Shown in pieces: positions 40,007 through 56,638 of a stretch of 63,350 nt of DNA. The position numbers and the translations under genes were made by a program. The stretch's first letter is position 1. Every line of letters begins with the position of its first letter. Below the pieces are notes generated by a model that had not been told where the DNA came from, did not search any database, and worked only from the letters and a program-made list of their open reading frames with translations. The DNA comes from a virus: positions 1-63,350 of the IMG/VR virus record IMGVR_UViG_3300020159_004055. One strand, given 5' to 3'.

Positions 40007-40033
40007 AGCCCCCTAGTTATAGGGGGCTTTTTT
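40007..40033 (+). terminator. Rho-independent terminator
   Basis: Stem AGCCCCCT (40007-40014), loop AGTTAT, stem AGGGGGCT (40021-40028), then six T. It ends the 39718 unit and is followed within 10 bases by the next promoter motif. Confidence 0.9.
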
Positions 40034-40038
40034 GTTTG

Positions 40039-40047
40039 GATATATAA
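40039..40047 (+). promoter_or_regulatory. Putative late promoter motif GATATATAA
   Basis: It lies directly after the terminator and 23 bases before the TTG start of the RuvC-like gene, and would drive the RuBisCO-like cassette. Confidence 0.55.
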
Positions 40048-40070
40048 ATGGCATTTTAAACAATAAAATT

Positions 40071-40736
40071 TTGAAAACATTAATCGGAATCGATTTTTCA
40101 CTAAACTCCCCAGCATTTTGTGTTAGAAAAGGCAATCAATTGATTTGGGGATCATTGACAAGAAGCGAGAGGGATAGGGAATCATATATCAAAAGTTCGA
40201 AAAAACCCTATGCTGTCTTGGATCCACAAGAGGAGTTCAATTTTCTTTTTATGGATAAGAAGAAAATGCCAGATGACTATTCTGAAAAGGAGAGAATCAA
40301 GATTGATTATTTTCAGGAGCTTGTTGACATATTTTGGACATCGATAATGGAAATATGTAAAGATGAAGAGATTGTGGTTGCGATGGAGGGTCTAAGTTTT
40401 TCCTCCAATGGCAACGCTTTGATTGATATTTCTATGGCTACTGCCTTGCTAAGGAAAAAGATCGTAGACCAAACCGGAAGCTCGAATTTCCATGTATTTT
40501 CACCCACCTCTGTCAAAAAATTTGCACTCAAGGGAAATGCAAAAAAGCATGAACTTTATGAGTCTTTGGTAAATCTTGATTCTGGAGAAACCAATCTGGG
40601 CAAATTCACTAAAATTTTAGAAGACAATAAGCATGAATGGATCACCGGGGGTGGAAACGTAAATAAGCCTCTAGACGATATGATTGATGCAACTTACATA
40701 TGTCTCTATCTATATGACACAGTCGGAAAAAATTAA
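40071..40736 (+). CDS. RuvC-like Holliday junction resolvase/nuclease
   Basis: The product (221 residues from a TTG start at 40071) has the RNase H-fold nuclease pattern: IGIDFS with Asp8, VVAMEGLSF with Glu106, and PLDDMIDATY with Asp202/203 and Asp206 at the C-terminus. This is the acidic set of RuvC-type resolvases and phage relatives. T4 instead uses endonuclease VII (gp49), so this may be the functional replacement, needed to debranch DNA before packaging. The TTG start is chosen because upstream sequence overlaps the promoter motif and terminator. The gene overlaps the next by 23 bases. Confidence 0.75.
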   Translation: MKTLIGIDFSLNSPAFCVRKGNQLIWGSLTRSERDRESYIKSSKKPYAVLDPQEEFNFLFMDKKKMPDDYSEKERIKIDYFQELVDIFWTSIMEICKDEEIVVAMEGLSFSSNGNALIDISMATALLRKKIVDQTGSSNFHVFSPTSVKKFALKGNAKKHELYESLVNLDSGETNLGKFTKILEDNKHEWITGGGNVNKPLDDMIDATYICLYLYDTVGKN

Positions 40737-41460
40737 CATCCTGATTCCTTTGGGAGGAGCCGGAAAAAGGTTTAGTGATAGCGGATACGAAGTGCCTAAA
40801 CCTTTTATTGATGTTGATGGTGAAACAATGATAAGAAGTGTTGTTAGCAACCTTAAACACGACCACTCGCATTTCATTTTTATAATAAACGAGCAAAGTA
40901 TTGGTATTTCTGATTTTCAGAAACACATTGAGGATTTATCAATTAGTTTTTCAATTTATGCAACACCATCTCTAACCGAGGGACCGGCTAGCACTGTCCT
41001 TTTAGCTAAAGACGAGATCAATACGGATATCCCACTGATAGTCGTTAATTGTGACCAGATCATACTAGACTTCAGTCTAGAAAACCTATTGTCGTTTTCT
41101 AAAACAACCGGCTGTGATGGAATACTCGGATGCTTCCTTTCTTCTTCAAAAAAGAATAGTTACGTTAGATTGGATCCAAACGGGGAAATTAGTGAAGTAA
41201 AGGAGAAGATAGTCATCTCAAATGTCGCAACTAATGGTTTACACTATTGGAAGTGTGGATCACTCTTTGTTAAATCTGCAGAGCAAATGATTGCTTTGGG
41301 TGACAGATATAATAATGAATTTTATGTTGCTCCTTCATATAACTACCTTATCAAGGAGGGGAAAAAAATACTTCCTTTCTTTTACAATTTACACTTTCCG
41401 ATTGGAACACCTGAAGACTTACAAACATACTTAGACATAAAGAAAAATGCAAATATTTAA
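40714..41460 (+). CDS. Sugar-phosphate-type nucleotidyltransferase
   Basis: The 248-residue product has the NTP_transferase fold signatures: ILIPLGGAGKRF at residues 9-20 (GGxGxR pyrophosphorylase loop), VPKPFIDV at about 27-34 (PKP), and VVNCDQI near 109-115 (metal-binding Asp). Such enzymes make NDP-sugars or related nucleotide-activated compounds from a phosphorylated substrate and NTP. It overlaps the RuvC-like gene by 23 bases and the cupin gene by 14 bases, so it is translationally coupled. It is probably the first step of the cassette containing the RuBisCO-like protein. Substrate is unknown. Confidence 0.8.
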   Translation: MTQSEKINILIPLGGAGKRFSDSGYEVPKPFIDVDGETMIRSVVSNLKHDHSHFIFIINEQSIGISDFQKHIEDLSISFSIYATPSLTEGPASTVLLAKDEINTDIPLIVVNCDQIILDFSLENLLSFSKTTGCDGILGCFLSSSKKNSYVRLDPNGEISEVKEKIVISNVATNGLHYWKCGSLFVKSAEQMIALGDRYNNEFYVAPSYNYLIKEGKKILPFFYNLHFPIGTPEDLQTYLDIKKNANI

Positions 41461-41785
41461 GATTGAAGATATGACTGGTGGCTGGTATGCAGGGGATTTT
41501 TCACCCTGTGCTTATCCCACTAAAGATTTTGAAATTTGTTATAAGAAACATCACAAAGGCGAATCGTGGCCAGCCCACTATCACAAAGAAGCTGACGAAA
41601 TAAATTTCCTTCGGAGTGGTAGAATGATCATACAAGGCAAGGAACTAGTGGCTGGTGACATTTTCATTCTCAAAAAGGGTGAGATAGCAAATCCGGTTTT
41701 TCTTGAAGATTGCGAAGTATTTATTGTAAAAACCCCAAGTGTAATCGGTGATAAATTCATATTAGGAGATGATCAGCATATTTAG
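41447..41785 (+). CDS. Single-domain cupin
   Basis: The 112-residue product is one cupin barrel: motif 1 HYHKEADEINFLRSG gives metal ligands His44, His46 and Glu51, and motif 2 (GDIFILKKGEIANPVFL, about 70-86) follows with no second His, since an Asn is in its usual place. Cupins of this size act as isomerases, epimerases, dioxygenases or lyases on small molecules. It overlaps both neighbours (14 and 17 bases). A cupin acts just downstream of a RuBisCO-like isomerase in the Rhodospirillum rubrum methylthio-sugar pathway, so the pairing is suggestive, but that cupin is not obviously an orthologue. Confidence 0.75.
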   Translation: MQIFKIEDMTGGWYAGDFSPCAYPTKDFEICYKKHHKGESWPAHYHKEADEINFLRSGRMIIQGKELVAGDIFILKKGEIANPVFLEDCEVFIVKTPSVIGDKFILGDDQHI

Positions 41786-43004
41786 AAAACAAAAAGGGAT
41801 TGATCTAGAGAAATATTTCGTCGTAACCTATTTTTTAGGTGCAAAAACTTCGTTAAGGGAAGCTGCCTGGAATTTAGCTATTGGCCAAAGTATAGGTAAT
41901 CCCAATAACAGAAGCGTTTGGGAAACTGAAGAGATGTTTGAGAACCACAGTTGCTTTATCATGCATGACGAGGAGGAACTCAAAAATTTAAAAGAAGGTG
42001 AAATTAAAATCGCGTTCCCTCTTGATAATTTAGATTTAGAAGAAGACGGGATTTCACAGATCCTGTGTCATATTGCTGGCGGGCAGGTTGATATATTGGA
42101 GATTGAAAAATGCCATATATTGGACGTAACTCTCCCCAAAATCATTGAAGAAATCTTTGCTCTCAAACCTGCTTACGGCATTGATGGTTTTAGAAAGTTC
42201 AATGGGGTGGATGGTAAGCCCTTTCTAGGAGGAATTATCAAACCCAAAGTGGGAATGTCTCCAGCGGTATTACTTGAGGCGGTGAAGGAAATGGTTTCTG
42301 GTGGTGTAAACTTCATCAAAGAGGATGAGCTACTAGCAAATCCTTCCCATTGTCCTTTAGAAGAAAGGGTTCCCCTTATAACTTCTTGGCCGAAAGAAAA
42401 TGCACCTGACGTAATTTATGCTTTCTGTATAAATGGCGACAGTCCTTATGCTTTGGAGAGAGCAAAATTTGTTTCTGAAAATGGTGGCAATGCCATTCAT
42501 ATTAATGTTTGGAGTGGGCTTGGAGTTTACCGGGCAATCAGAAAACAAAACCCTTGCCTCTGGATACACTTTCAAAAAAGCGGTGATAAATTTTTTACCG
42601 ATAGAAGAGCACCATTCCATATCTATTGGCCACTTATTTGCAAGATAGCTGGCTGGTCGGGGGTTGACTCCATTCACGCTGGTATGATTGGTGGATATAT
42701 GAATCAAGACGAGAAGGAATTGGCAGATTGCTTAAGTATGCTTTGGCATTATAATATAGTCCCAGCTCTCAGCTGCGGGATGCACCCCGGACTTGTTGAT
42801 TTTATAAACAAGCAATTAAATTCTGTTGACTGGATGGCAAATGTAGGTGGAGCAATGCACGGACATCCGTCAGGGACAAAAGCTGGTGGTCTCGCGATGA
42901 AGCAAGCAATCAACGGGGAGGTTCAATCTGAAGAGTATTTACAAGCAATAGAAAAATGGGGAATAAAAAGCTTCCCTGAAGATTTAGCATATAGAATTTT
43001 TTAA
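41769..43004 (+). CDS. RuBisCO-like protein (form IV)
   Basis: The 411-residue product aligns by motif over the whole RuBisCO large-subunit barrel: GGIIKPKVGMSP (residues 154-165, Lys158 and Lys160 for Lys175/177 of plant RuBisCO), GGVNFIKEDE (178-187, the carbamylated Lys184 with Asp186 and Glu187), WIHF (His267 for His294), SIHAGM (His303 for His327), LSCG (Ser335 for Ser379), and GGAMHGHPSG. Several carboxylase residues are changed: loop-6 Lys334 is Tyr310, Arg295 is Phe268, and Asn123 is not conserved. So it keeps the metal site and one phosphate site but should not fix CO2. It fits RuBisCO-like enolases/isomerases acting on phosphorylated sugars. Its start overlaps the cupin gene; the next gene begins 3 bases after the stop. 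Confidence 0.9.
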   Translation: MISIFRKQKGIDLEKYFVVTYFLGAKTSLREAAWNLAIGQSIGNPNNRSVWETEEMFENHSCFIMHDEEELKNLKEGEIKIAFPLDNLDLEEDGISQILCHIAGGQVDILEIEKCHILDVTLPKIIEEIFALKPAYGIDGFRKFNGVDGKPFLGGIIKPKVGMSPAVLLEAVKEMVSGGVNFIKEDELLANPSHCPLEERVPLITSWPKENAPDVIYAFCINGDSPYALERAKFVSENGGNAIHINVWSGLGVYRAIRKQNPCLWIHFQKSGDKFFTDRRAPFHIYWPLICKIAGWSGVDSIHAGMIGGYMNQDEKELADCLSMLWHYNIVPALSCGMHPGLVDFINKQLNSVDWMANVGGAMHGHPSGTKAGGLAMKQAINGEVQSEEYLQAIEKWGIKSFPEDLAYRIF

Positions 43005-43007
43005 GTC

Positions 43008-43466
43008 ATGAGATTAATCTCACATCGTGGAAATGTAAATGGTCCTTATTCGAATCTGGAAAATAGTCCTCATTATATCGATAAGGCGATTTCACAGGGA
43101 TTTGATGTTGAGATTGATGTCTGGGTTGTAGAAGAACAGATTATGTTAGGTCACGATTTTCCACAATTTATGGTAGATCTTGATTGGATTAAAGAAAGAC
43201 ATGATGTTCTTTGGATCCATTGCAAGAATATAGAAGCTATTACTTTCTTTGCAAGATATGATGTGCTTTTTGGGATGACCCATCCTGCATTTAATTATTT
43301 CTGGCACGAGACTGATAAGGTCACTTTAACTTCTAAAGGCGTAATATGGGCTTATCCTGGTAATCAGCCAATTTCAGGAAGCATTGCAGTTTTACCTGAA
43401 CTACATGATGATGACCTTGGAGATTGCTTTGGGGTTTGCTCTGATTTTGTAACTAGATATAAATGA
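43008..43466 (+). CDS. Compact GDPD-like phosphodiesterase domain
   Basis: The 152-residue product has the early motifs of glycerophosphodiester phosphodiesterases: ISHRGN (His6, Arg7), ENS (Glu18, Asn19), VEIDVW (Glu35, Asp37) and GHD (His49). It is much shorter than the usual 230-260 residues and seems to lack part of the TIM barrel's second half. The metal and first catalytic residues are retained. It may hydrolyse a phosphodiester, or act in transfer chemistry on an intermediate of the cassette. The stop overlaps the next gene's start (ATGA). Confidence 0.65.
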   Translation: MRLISHRGNVNGPYSNLENSPHYIDKAISQGFDVEIDVWVVEEQIMLGHDFPQFMVDLDWIKERHDVLWIHCKNIEAITFFARYDVLFGMTHPAFNYFWHETDKVTLTSKGVIWAYPGNQPISGSIAVLPELHDDDLGDCFGVCSDFVTRYK

Positions 43467-44245
43467 GGGTAGCACTTTTACTTCCAGGTCAAATAAGGGA
43501 GGCCAAAGATGTATTTCCTTTCATAAAGGGTAAAATCATAGATAAATTCAAAGCTGATGTTTTCATTTCAACGTGGGCACCTTCGAACAAAATAAAACAA
43601 TCCCTACACGCGGATAGTTCACACCTTGTGGATTCATTAACACTGAATGATGCCTTAGAATCTTTTAAACCAAAATCTTTTTTAACAGAAGACTACGAAT
43701 CCGAAGGTATATCAAATATAATTCAGCGTGCTTTTTCATATGATCCTTTGAGTCCAGGCACCGGAGAGATGAATCCTGCCTCAGTTTTTCTGATGTGGTA
43801 TAAAGTTATGCAATGCTTCAATTTGATGTGCGACTACGAAAAAATCATTGGTGAAAGATACGACTATGTTATAAAAGGAAGATTTGACATTAAGATCCAT
43901 AACGACTTGAATTTAGACCCGAATTTGAATACAATCTGTGTACCTCCTGGATATGATTGGAGGGGAGGAGTAAATGACGTTTTCGCTTGGGGAGGCAGAG
44001 ATGCTATGGAATGGTATAGTTCAATGTTCATGCACTTAGAAGAGTATATTCTAACGTTAAACTTTTTCCATCCGGAAACTCTTCTCCGCCGGCATTTAGA
44101 GGTTGGCCCTTATAATTTAGACCGGCCAGACCTCCACGTTTCTCTACGTGGAAAAAATGTTTGGGAAACTGAAGTGCTTGCAGAAAAATTTAATAAAAAA
44201 AGTTACAGATATATAGAATCTAAGGGAAACATTTGGGACACTTAG
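43463..44245 (+). CDS. Glycosyltransferase-like protein
   Basis: The 260-residue product resembles the group of phage and capsule-locus glycosyltransferase-like proteins that begin with VALLLPGQIR (residues 3-12), have a DVFISTWA strand (32-39), a YKVMQCFNL helix (113-121) and YDYVIKGRFDI (133-143), where RFD is the likely nucleotide-sugar binding triad. The C-terminal part is helical. It closes the cassette and, if active, would attach the product made upstream to DNA, protein or a glycan. A membrane anchor is absent. The acceptor is unknown. Confidence 0.6.
   Translation: MRVALLLPGQIREAKDVFPFIKGKIIDKFKADVFISTWAPSNKIKQSLHADSSHLVDSLTLNDALESFKPKSFLTEDYESEGISNIIQRAFSYDPLSPGTGEMNPASVFLMWYKVMQCFNLMCDYEKIIGERYDYVIKGRFDIKIHNDLNLDPNLNTICVPPGYDWRGGVNDVFAWGGRDAMEWYSSMFMHLEEYILTLNFFHPETLLRRHLEVGPYNLDRPDLHVSLRGKNVWETEVLAEKFNKKSYRYIESKGNIWDT
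44208..44216 (+). promoter_or_regulatory. Possible late promoter motif GATATATAG for gp32
   Basis: It lies inside the end of the glycosyltransferase-like gene, 68 bases before the gp32 start. It matches the motif before the 3901 and 48627 genes. Confidence 0.35.
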
Positions 44246-44284: not shown

Positions 44285-45256
44285 ATGAGCAATTTAGACA
44301 TTTTTAACTTGGATGCAGAAGCATTCGTAACCAAGGCAAAAAAGGAGCAATCCGAAGGAATCGAATTTTACAAGCCTTATCCAGAAAATGGAAAGGACGG
44401 GGTTTACAAATCTCTTATTCGTTTCTTACCAAACCACGTAGATCCTACGAAATCAAAAATCCACAAGTACTACGTTTACTTAACTGATCCTTCCTCTGGA
44501 GACGGATTTGTAGCTGACTGTCCTTCCACTGTCGGAAAGAAGTCAATTCTGAAAGACATGTTCTGGAAGCTAAAGAATTCACATTCTGCTGCTGACCAAG
44601 AGCTTGCTAAGAGCTTCTCCCGTAAGGAAGATTATTATTCATTAATCCAAATTGTTCAGGACAAACATAATCCTGAGCTAGAAGGTAAAATCATGATCTT
44701 CAAATTTGGTAAAAAGCTTAACGACATGCTCGAGGCACAGCTTAAGCCAGAATACGGAGACCCTGTAAATCCATTTGATCTGTTCGAAGGAAAACTTTTC
44801 TCCGTACACACAAGAAAAGTTGGTGATTGGAACAACTATGATCTTTGCTCTTTTGTTGGAGATAGGCTTCCTATTGAAATCAATGGCAAAAGAATGCAAA
44901 AGAATAAGCAAGATATGGACACCATCCTTGAGTATTTGAAAACTGGACCAGACAATCTTACTCAATTTGATTACAGAGATTGGGATGATAATATGACTGA
45001 TCGAGTGATGAATGTTATCAGAAATTCAGTTCCTGACGGACGTATGGTAAATGAGGTTCTGTCGGGAGTAAATACATCTGCACCTTCAAAACCATCATCT
45101 AACAATTCTAGACCAACAACTTCTTCCAGCATTTATGAAGAAGCTTCTCATACTAAAGTTGGTGCCCAGCCAGAGCCGGTTAAGTCCGAAGGGATTGTAA
45201 GGCCAGAAGCACCTGAAACTTCTTCGTCTTTGGACGACCTATACGCAGATCTCTAA
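44285..45256 (+). CDS. 32: Single-stranded DNA-binding protein gp32
   Basis: The 323-residue product matches T4 gp32 in layout: an N-terminal cooperativity segment, an OB-fold core with HNPELEGKIMIFKFGKK (about 137-153), corresponding to the ENEGKVFKYRFGKK region of T4, and an acidic C-terminal tail ending SSLDDLYADL, used for protein contacts. The T4 zinc site (H-C-C-C, including CPVC) is absent; only one Cys remains near residue 80. It covers ssDNA during replication and recombination. It precedes primase and the UvsY/UvsW genes and is followed by a terminator, giving a strong single-gene unit, as in T4. The AAGGA before the ATG is one of few Shine-Dalgarno-like leaders here. Confidence 0.85.
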   Translation: MSNLDIFNLDAEAFVTKAKKEQSEGIEFYKPYPENGKDGVYKSLIRFLPNHVDPTKSKIHKYYVYLTDPSSGDGFVADCPSTVGKKSILKDMFWKLKNSHSAADQELAKSFSRKEDYYSLIQIVQDKHNPELEGKIMIFKFGKKLNDMLEAQLKPEYGDPVNPFDLFEGKLFSVHTRKVGDWNNYDLCSFVGDRLPIEINGKRMQKNKQDMDTILEYLKTGPDNLTQFDYRDWDDNMTDRVMNVIRNSVPDGRMVNEVLSGVNTSAPSKPSSNNSRPTTSSSIYEEASHTKVGAQPEPVKSEGIVRPEAPETSSSLDDLYADL

Positions 45257-50507: not shown

Positions 50508-52424
50508 ATGGCAGGAATTAATCATTTATACGACATTTACAACAAGAAGGGATCCGACTTTGTAAATCAACTTTTCAACCAGTTCGTAACCATCAATGAG
50601 AAAATGGACGGTTCAGCTTTTTCTTTCGAAAGAGACAAAGAAACTGGAAAATTCAAGTTCTTCAGAAGGGACCAAAGAAATCCTATAACTTTGGTTGATC
50701 GGACCTTAATGAAGTACTATGAGAAGCCAATCCAGTATATTGAATCGTTGCCACCAAACATACTTGAAAAAATACCGAGAGGATGGAGATTTGGTCTCGA
50801 ATATTTTGCTTCTAGACAGCCCGTAGAAATTACCTATGATAGACTACCCAAAAACAATTTAATCCTTTCTTACGTCCATAAAATGGGCGAAGGTGAGAAG
50901 ATTCAGACTACTATCCAAGATAAAGAGAAGCTTGATAATTGGGCGGATCTTTTGGGTGTTGAGAGACCACCGATTATTTTCCAAGGTTTGCTGGACGAAG
51001 ATCAAAAATCTAAATTGCTTGAATTTCTAAACACCCCTTTCAAGGAACTTGTAGAAAAATTTAAGACACAATCTTTCGTCAGATTCCTGATTTCTACACT
51101 TAACCCAGATCTAGAAAAGACAGCTCTTAATGACGACCTAGATAAAGACGTTGAAGGAATAGTTTTCAGATTTGGTGATCCGGATAAAGATAGTGAGACC
51201 ATCCTTGCAAAAATGGTAGATCCTATTTTCACTGAAATAGCAAAGGAAAAGTTTGCTGACAAGCAGGCCAAAAAGCCCAGCGATTTTCTCGGAATCACGA
51301 TTATGGATGTTATGAATTTCATCCTAGAAAAGGGCCTCGACGAGTTTGAGGTTGATGGTGAAAGCGACGATGAGAGATACATTTCATTCATGTCGGATGT
51401 TTATGTTAAATTCTTAGATGAATACTCGGACAAATATAAGGGCACTGACTTTGAAGAACCTGAGTATTTAAAAAGGGATGAATTCAGACTCAATCTCGAT
51501 AAGGTAAAAGACAGAAGAGTTAGAAAGTATGTAGAAAAGGATGAGGCATTCGAATCACTATATAAGCTTATCCTTAATTCATTTAGAAAAATCAAGACAA
51601 GATCTGGTGGAATAGTATCCTCTGGGATGAAGGACCAATTTAACCTCCTGATTCAGGATATTAAAGACTATATCAAAAAACCTAAGGCTAAGATAAATGA
51701 ATCGAATTTTGTTAGCTTCGGTGAATTTAGAAAGGAACTTTCTCCTCAGGTAGATTACATGCAGACAGAATCTGAAGATTCTGATAAATTGGAAGATCCT
51801 TTTTATTCTTTTGAAGAATTCATTACCAAATTAGAAACTATAGGAAACGAATCCTTGCCAAAAGACATAGAGTTGATTGAGGAGGAAACTGGTGATGATT
51901 CCAAGTCGGTAAATGTTATTATGGGTAGATTTCAACCATTTCACAATGGTCATTTACAAATGACCAAAGCAATGAAGGAAGAAAATGGACATCCCACTGT
52001 TTTATTGGTAGTTTATCCAGGTCACAATAAATCTGGCGAATCTCCATTTGACAGCGAAGCAATCAAAAGATACATGGATGCTGTCGTAAATAATAACGAA
52101 GAAATTGATTCCTACATTGTTATGAATCGTGGTCTACTCGGTTCTGGAATTGCCAAGCTAGTTGATAAGGGGTACAATCCAATTTTGATCGGATCAGGTC
52201 CAGACCGTTACGAGGATTACCAAAAGCAAATGGATTATATTAGAATGTCCGATATCAAAGACAGGATTAGTAAAGATATGAAGCTTTTTAAAACCGAAAG
52301 AACTACGAGCGGAACAAAAGCCAGAGAGTATTTGACACAGGGAGACTTTTCTAAATTCAAAAAGATCGTTCCGAAGGAGGTTGCTAATCTTTACAATGAC
52401 TTAGTTACCTTTGTCAAGGACTGA
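50508..52424 (+). CDS. RNA ligase-like domain fused to NMN adenylyltransferase-like domain
   Basis: The 638-residue product joins two enzymes. Residues about 1-245 have covalent nucleotidyltransferase motifs: EKMDGS (31-36, adenylated Lys32), RFGLEYF (94-100), EGIVFR (216-221) and ILAKMVD (232-238), as in ATP-dependent RNA/DNA ligases. Residues about 468-630 have GRFQPFHNGH (473-482) and TTSGTKAREYL (599-609), the HxGH and C-terminal motifs of NMN adenylyltransferase/cytidylyltransferases. The linker (about 395-445) contains FVSFGEFRKEL and FYSFEEFITKLE, resembling the tags at neighbouring N-termini. NMNAT makes NAD+ from NMN and ATP. The combination is unusual; possible roles are tRNA/RNA repair, NAD+ restoration, or both. 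Confidence 0.75.
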   Translation: MAGINHLYDIYNKKGSDFVNQLFNQFVTINEKMDGSAFSFERDKETGKFKFFRRDQRNPITLVDRTLMKYYEKPIQYIESLPPNILEKIPRGWRFGLEYFASRQPVEITYDRLPKNNLILSYVHKMGEGEKIQTTIQDKEKLDNWADLLGVERPPIIFQGLLDEDQKSKLLEFLNTPFKELVEKFKTQSFVRFLISTLNPDLEKTALNDDLDKDVEGIVFRFGDPDKDSETILAKMVDPIFTEIAKEKFADKQAKKPSDFLGITIMDVMNFILEKGLDEFEVDGESDDERYISFMSDVYVKFLDEYSDKYKGTDFEEPEYLKRDEFRLNLDKVKDRRVRKYVEKDEAFESLYKLILNSFRKIKTRSGGIVSSGMKDQFNLLIQDIKDYIKKPKAKINESNFVSFGEFRKELSPQVDYMQTESEDSDKLEDPFYSFEEFITKLETIGNESLPKDIELIEEETGDDSKSVNVIMGRFQPFHNGHLQMTKAMKEENGHPTVLLVVYPGHNKSGESPFDSEAIKRYMDAVVNNNEEIDSYIVMNRGLLGSGIAKLVDKGYNPILIGSGPDRYEDYQKQMDYIRMSDIKDRISKDMKLFKTERTTSGTKAREYLTQGDFSKFKKIVPKEVANLYNDLVTFVKD

Positions 52425-56132: not shown

Positions 56133-56157
56133 ACCAGGCCCTCAAGCCTGGTTTTTT
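56133..56157 (+). terminator. Rho-independent terminator
   Basis: Stem ACCAGGC (56133-56139), loop CCTCAA, stem GCCTGGT (56146-56152), T run. It separates the accessory operon from the heat-shock gene. Confidence 0.9.
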
Positions 56158-56172
56158 GTTTGTTATCGAAAT

Positions 56173-56216
56173 GACAAAATGTCGTTTGTTATCCTTATCC
56201 GATAGGACAAAATGTC
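56173..56216. promoter_or_regulatory. Two copies of operator-like dyad GACAAAATGTC before hsp20
   Basis: GACAAAATGTC, an inverted repeat (GACA-AAA-TGTC), occurs at 56173-56183 and again at 56206-56216. The centres are 33 bases apart, about three helical turns, so both copies face the same side of the DNA. The downstream copy overlaps where a -33 element would lie for the TATATTTC at 56243-56250. A host repressor or sigma factor could act here. Confidence 0.5.
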
Positions 56217-56242
56217 TTATTTTCATCAATTTTTCGAATTGG

Positions 56243-56250
56243 TATATTTC
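56243..56250 (+). promoter_or_regulatory. Bacteroidota-like -7 element TATATTTC
   Basis: TATATTTC matches TAnnTTTG at seven of eight positions and lies 31 bases before the hsp20 ATG. No clear -33 TTG was seen, so the call is tentative. Confidence 0.3.
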
Positions 56251-56281
56251 TTGCTTACTAATAATTAAAAAAAACAAAACT

Positions 56282-56638
56282 ATGGAAACACACAAAATTT
56301 ATCACCCTCTCGAAATGATGGAAAGACTTCTGCAAAACACAACACCTATAGTGCAAAGTAGAAAGTATTTCGTGGATGAAAAGGAAGATTCTTTTATCTT
56401 AGAAATGCCAGTTCCTGGATTTGAACAAGATGCAATAAATTTAGAAGTGGACAATGATATGCTTGTAATTTCAGGGAAAGATTCGGATTCATATTGGACG
56501 GAGGATTTTACTAAGAAATTTAAGTTACCCAACACGGTAGATCAAAATGGAATCAAGGCTAAAATATCGGACGGGATATTGAAAATCAATCTTTCCAAGA
56601 AGAAAGAATCACTTCCCAAAAAGATTAAAATCTCTTAA
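56282..56638 (+). CDS. Small heat-shock protein (Hsp20 family)
   Basis: From the ATG at 56282 the product is 118 residues, with an alpha-crystallin domain: KEDSFILEMPVPGFEQDAI, then VDNDMLVISGKDSD, then a final strand GILKINLSKKKE. It is shorter than most bacterial Hsp20s, with a reduced N-terminal arm. T4-like cyanophages carry such a chaperone. It holds unfolded proteins, possibly during head or tail assembly or host stress. An upstream TTG-started extension (from 56156) lies over the operator-like sites and is not credible. Confidence 0.85.
   Translation: METHKIYHPLEMMERLLQNTTPIVQSRKYFVDEKEDSFILEMPVPGFEQDAINLEVDNDMLVISGKDSDSYWTEDFTKKFKLPNTVDQNGIKAKISDGILKINLSKKKESLPKKIKIS

Follow-up and report, generated by a model that had tools for sequence, protein, structure and literature searches.

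What does a RuBisCO-like protein (RLP) do in a phage, and what do the genes packed around it contribute? The question is raised by a five-gene cassette at positions 40714–44245 of the IMG/VR record IMGVR_UViG_3300020159_004055, whose full 63,350 bp were analysed and are called the window here. According to the ORF calls, the cassette consists, in order and all on the plus strand, of a sugar-1-phosphate-type nucleotidyltransferase (NT; 40714..41460, 248 aa), a small metal-binding cupin (41447..41785, 112 aa), the RLP (41769..43004, 411 aa), a mini GDPD-like protein (43008..43466, 152 aa) and a putative glycosyltransferase (GT-like; 43463..44245, 260 aa). The successive junctions are a 14-nt overlap, a 17-nt overlap, a 3-nt gap and a 4-nt overlap, which agrees with the preliminary description of five genes overlapping or within 4 bases of each other after a RuvC-like gene. 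The latter encodes a RuvC-like resolvase (40032..40736, plus strand; phrog_159, 8.5e-15) and overlaps the NT gene by 23 nt, but is regarded as a flank outside the pathway. On the other side, 39 nt separate the GT-like gene from that of the gp32 single-strand-binding protein (44285..45256, plus strand; PF08804, 1.8e-14), so that the cassette is placed between the RuvC-like gene and gp32/primase.

A strong terminator-like hairpin (40007–40028; 9 pairs, T-rich tail) lies immediately 5' of the RuvC-like gene, and transcription of the cassette may thus begin there. The number of promoter-like sites across the cassette region is not above chance. The contig carries T4-like features, i.e., a baseplate wedge, gp32, a primase, a helicase and a DNA polymerase. 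The closest relative of the helicase comes from a 462-kb uncultured phage (44% identity), so the contig is possibly a piece of a larger genome. The window also encodes a 638-aa protein with an RNA-ligase domain (PF09414) and a cytidylyltransferase-like domain (PF01467) at 50508–52424, and a small heat-shock protein (Hsp20) at 56156–56638.

That the third gene belongs to the RuBisCO fold is clear from its Pfam matches (PF00016, 3.4e-32; PF02788, 4.8e-5) and from its matches to solved RuBisCOs and RLPs, the best being PDB 3nwr (3.2e-34). Its best NCBIfam match is the type III RuBisCO model (2.4e-45). Annotation pipelines label such matches as carbon-fixation genes, and a 2025 paper counts viral rbcL among the genes for CO2 fixation, noting that it groups with 'RbcL-like' proteins (PMC12607003). 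By this explanation, the phage protein would be a genuine RuBisCO, carboxylating RuBP on behalf of the infected host. However, the scores against the RuBisCO equivalog models are all far under the cut-off (155 vs 497 bits), and the genomic context is one of NT, cupin and glycan genes.

The active site speaks more directly to this point. In RuBisCO, the carbamate and the metal serve enolisation; CO2 itself is covered by K334 and E60 and positioned with the help of N123. We have aligned the residues to the spinach RuBisCO numbering. Across the RLP family, in phages and cells alike, K175, K177, K201, D203, E204, H327, S379 and G381 are kept, and the carbamate/metal site (K201, D203, E204) together with the base K175 is present in every member compared. 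By contrast, N123G, H294Q, R295K, H298D, K334Y and G380C are fixed replacements in both phages and cells; a single viral sequence deviates at R295/H298, and a single one at H327. In addition, Q stands in place of E60, and GNPNxR is found at the T65-W66 loop. In the contig's own numbering, the metal site is K184, D186 and E187, K158 and K160 correspond to K175 and K177, and G105, Q269, K270, Y310 and Q40 replace N123, H294, R295, K334 and E60, respectively. As the carboxylation residues are replaced while the carbamate/metal site is intact, the protein is predicted to be a metal-dependent enolase or isomerase, not a carboxylase. Although the intact site and the PF00016 and type III matches would suit carbon fixation, the family-wide loss of N123, H294, R295, K334 and E60 makes a true phage RuBisCO barely credible here, and judging from the residues, CO2 fixation by any member of the family is very unlikely. 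Caution is needed with viral 'rbcL' matches, which may be read as carbon fixation though the needed residues are gone.

The RLP family is also separate from its known relatives by score and by phylogeny. With the family profile, members reach at least 318 bits, while the other RuBisCO homologues tested stay at or below 202 bits. In the tree, support of 100/100 separates the family from forms I, II, III, OiaX and the other sampled RLPs; two sequences with very long branches (L097 and L100) are excluded from its final version. MtnW was compared by model score, and the family may overlap with the marine RLP class 'IV-GOS'. The sampled viral RLPs fall within a single inner clade (100/99), which also holds six cellular sequences, and the Patescibacteria RLP branches among the viral ones. 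Between near relatives, dN is 0.13–0.19 and synonymous change is saturated, which indicates strong purifying selection on the RLP. An OiaX role was considered and rejected, given the different residues, the separate clade and a score of 126 bits where the cut-off is 700.

The preliminary description took the phage-encoded RLP in a coupled five-gene cassette from one contig; the RLP in a conserved cassette turns out to be far more general. A single-sequence scan of IMG/VR yields 89 viral relatives, on contigs up to 518 kb, and a profile-based scan yields at least 355 viral contigs with the family, some from huge phages; the latter number is a lower bound, as the scan uses exact patterns. No member turned up among isolated phages (50,697 phage records). 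Among bacteria and archaea, 23 RLP loci were found in the collection searched, and the carriers include Pelagibacteraceae (SAR11), Patescibacteria, Bacteroidota, DPANN archaea, Verrucomicrobia, Elusimicrobia, Azospirillum and Legionella; some of the short contigs among these loci could be viral in origin. Plasmids yielded other kinds of RLP only, with ~30% identity at best among the matches listed. Three of these plasmid RLPs (L320, L321 and L322) adjoin four-carbon acid sugar kinases, and the haloarchaeal one carries a RuBisCO annotation.

Whether the cassette itself is a unit was judged from 56 viral loci with adequate flanks, dereplicated at 95% RLP identity, where genes within ~3 kb of the RLP were counted as near and the GDPD and GT-like neighbours were counted with separate profiles. 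NT is near the RLP in 54/56 loci, the cupin in 51/56, GDPD in 47/56 and the GT-like gene in 34/56. That is, the first three accompany the RLP in 84–96% of viral loci, so that the refuting condition named beforehand, a lack of co-occurrence in related phages, does not hold. NT, cupin and RLP are contiguous in 38 of the 56 loci, and all four core genes stand in the contig's order in 16, while the exact five-gene order is mostly restricted to near relatives. Near relatives share the gene order, and much more distant phages still have the core, so chance does not explain the arrangement. To call it a complete five-gene pathway was nevertheless an overstatement, considering the GT-like count, the 16 loci with the full core order, and the cassette of this contig, within which no kinase or phosphatase is found.

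The surroundings of the cassette vary. RuvC and primase flanks as in this contig occur at 17 loci, the RuvC flank in near relatives only. Most phages thus carry the cassette in another setting, usually a glycan cluster. The wider neighbours of the RLP include NAD-dependent epimerases, UDP-GlcNAc 2-epimerase, GT2, DegT aminotransferases and FkbM/TylF-type methyltransferases. Compared with this contig, the relative on a 232-kb contig (L005) has an RLP of 83% identity but an NT of 45%, while the relative sharing the whole gene order (L066) shows 52% for the RLP and 68% for NT; this contrast implies that the RLP partly moves on its own. SAR11 repeatedly shows the order GDPD-NT-RLP-NT next to genes that appear by eye to be thyX and hflK/hflC, so the cassette should be chromosomal there. 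The cupin is often absent from cellular loci (2/11).

This variation bears on where an activated sugar would go. Here the cassette lies among replication genes (RuvC, gp32, primase) and includes a transferase-like gene, which would suit an anti-restriction role in which the sugar is attached to phage DNA and not to a glycan. Against it stand the glycan-cluster setting in most other phages, the occurrence of the cassette in cells, and the contig itself, on which no modified-base synthesis gene was noticed in a non-systematic look. We consider DNA modification unlikely. The glycan-type neighbours support the theme of sugar activation and transfer, as does the NT family, and the preliminary description was right in this respect; the neighbours do not, however, reveal the destination of the sugar.

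The other four cassette genes all match PHROG families without assigned function, and the evidence on them is of unequal strength. NT is the clearest case (PF00483, 3.3e-11, 43.7 bits vs a cut-off of 21.2; phrog_3980, 1.6e-56; PDB 4evw, 1.2e-10). Its conserved signature comprises G-G-R, KP, D124 and E174-K175, numbered from a longer ORF starting at 40684, and the HddC model is among its better NCBIfam matches (4.3e-7, under the cut-off). The cupin matches phrog_24762 (4.3e-28), stays under the Pfam cut-off (Cupin_7, 9.7e-4) and matches solved cupins weakly, and its metal motif H44-x-H46-x4-E51 is invariant or nearly so. The GDPD-like protein matches phrog_34507 (2e-30) and no Pfam family. It carries the conserved pattern HRG..EN..ExD..GHD..K, and its AlphaFold model is of high confidence (pLDDT 97); the nearest solved GDPDs are weak fold matches, and the weak profile matches to them span only about the first 55 residues. 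For the last gene, phrog_13607 (2.4e-13, function unassigned) and the context hint at a glycosyltransferase; it has no Pfam match, and its AlphaFold model (pLDDT 42) is unusable.

More can be learned from what NT is fused to. Related NTs are fused to a HAD phosphatase at either end. Where an NT immediately precedes the cupin, it carries the HAD fusion in 10/10 loci lacking the RLP but in only 3/65 loci having it; the counts are uncorrected for phylogeny, and the RLP-less contigs may be incomplete. This suggests that RLP and HAD phosphatase are alternative steps: in other phages the NT-cupin-GDPD core has the HAD phosphatase in the RLP's place, and the two may process the same kind of sugar bisphosphate. 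One locus (L024) also appears, by eye, to have HAD together with a transaldolase-like gene, and six loci have a RibB homologue ~5 kb away from the RLP. The substrates of HAD, RpiB, RibB and transaldolase-type enzymes are small sugar phosphates, for instance ribulose-5-P. In Synechococcus phage Bellamy (L105, 6998–8155), an NT annotated as 'phosphatase' is fused to an RpiB-type sugar isomerase, and in Synechococcus phage S-SKS1 (L108, 5001–6428), an NT in a glycan cluster is fused to 3,4-dihydroxy-2-butanone-4-phosphate synthase (RibB, DHBP synthase).

Two salvage pathways have to be weighed at this point. RLPs include the enolase MtnW, cupins include acireductone dioxygenase, and RLP, cupin and HAD families do meet in these clusters. 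The cassette could thus resemble methionine salvage, with the RLP as DK-MTP-1-P enolase, the cupin as an acireductone-dioxygenase-like protein and HAD as the phosphatase. Yet HAD and RLP are mostly mutually exclusive, the cupin has only 107–112 aa, NT is nearly always present, and the MtnW models score 117 vs 409 and 92 vs 514 bits, both under the cut-off; we regard this pathway as clearly improbable. Nucleoside or pentose salvage, like that of the archaeal type III RuBisCO in AMP breakdown, could account for the best NCBIfam match being type III, and the RpiB and RibB links suggest ribulose phosphates. However, neither AMP phosphorylase nor ribose-1,5-bisphosphate isomerase is among the annotated neighbours, NT is present in nearly all loci and the active site is replaced, which leaves it highly improbable. 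A ribulose-type substrate fits the RibB and RpiB links, while methylthioribulose, proposed beforehand, is disfavoured by the MtnW scores.

Overall, the RLP family has an active site of its own and belongs to a cassette for sugar activation. Our best reading, to which we give slightly more credence than doubt, is that the cassette serves to produce an unusual nucleotide-activated sugar, via a non-carboxylating RLP, and to use it in a glycan of the host surface or the virion. For the RLP, we propose metal-dependent enolisation or isomerisation of a small sugar phosphate or bisphosphate, with no CO2 added, and the cupin probably epimerises or isomerises the sugar intermediate. NT, whose family is evident, would join the product to a nucleotide, and the GT-like protein might then transfer the activated sugar. 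The weakest step is that of the GDPD-like protein, probably the cleavage or exchange of a phosphodiester in the intermediate or product. The broader proposal, for and against which we see equal chances, is that a so far undescribed, mainly viral RuBisCO-fold family, whose new active site is fixed, supplies the precursor of a nucleotide-activated sugar for phage glycans, and is interchangeable with a HAD phosphatase in the NT-cupin-GDPD module. If true, the RuBisCO fold would gain a reaction and a biological role new to it, viruses would be a large reservoir of the fold, and phages would make an activated sugar not known so far.

We have found no description of an NT-cupin-RLP cassette in the open-licence literature, in line with the earlier statement that no phage cassette of such form is described; no open-licence paper found names RuBisCO-like, nucleotidyltransferase and cupin together, and an earlier description elsewhere is possible. 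Marine RuBisCO homologues outside the known clades have been described (PMC1821046). The landfill-phage 'RbcL-like' gene (PMC12607003) is likewise a phage-encoded non-standard RuBisCO homologue, which may belong to another family than the present one, and the accessible part of that paper reports it for carbon fixation, with no cassette or active-site analysis.

Among known systems, the RLP falls under the broad definition of form IV, i.e., a RuBisCO homologue without the carboxylation residues. It shares with form IV the common fold family and the enolase-type site with carbamate/metal residues, but is a separate clade among those sampled, with its own residue signature and NT-cupin-GDPD partners. 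OiaX and the related sugar-acid RLPs act on small sugar phosphates, and 3nwr is the closest solved RLP to the protein of this contig. Unlike the present family, OiaX-like proteins retain H294/R295/K334, and some relatives stand beside four-carbon acid sugar kinases. The Synechococcus phages Bellamy, S-SM2 and SynMITS9220M01 carry homologous NT, cupin and GDPD in glycan clusters, but without the RLP. Finally, the NDP-heptose pathway (GmhA/kinase/GmhB/HddC) follows a similar logic of isomerase, HAD phosphatase and NT, whereas here RLP, cupin and GDPD replace the heptose enzymes.
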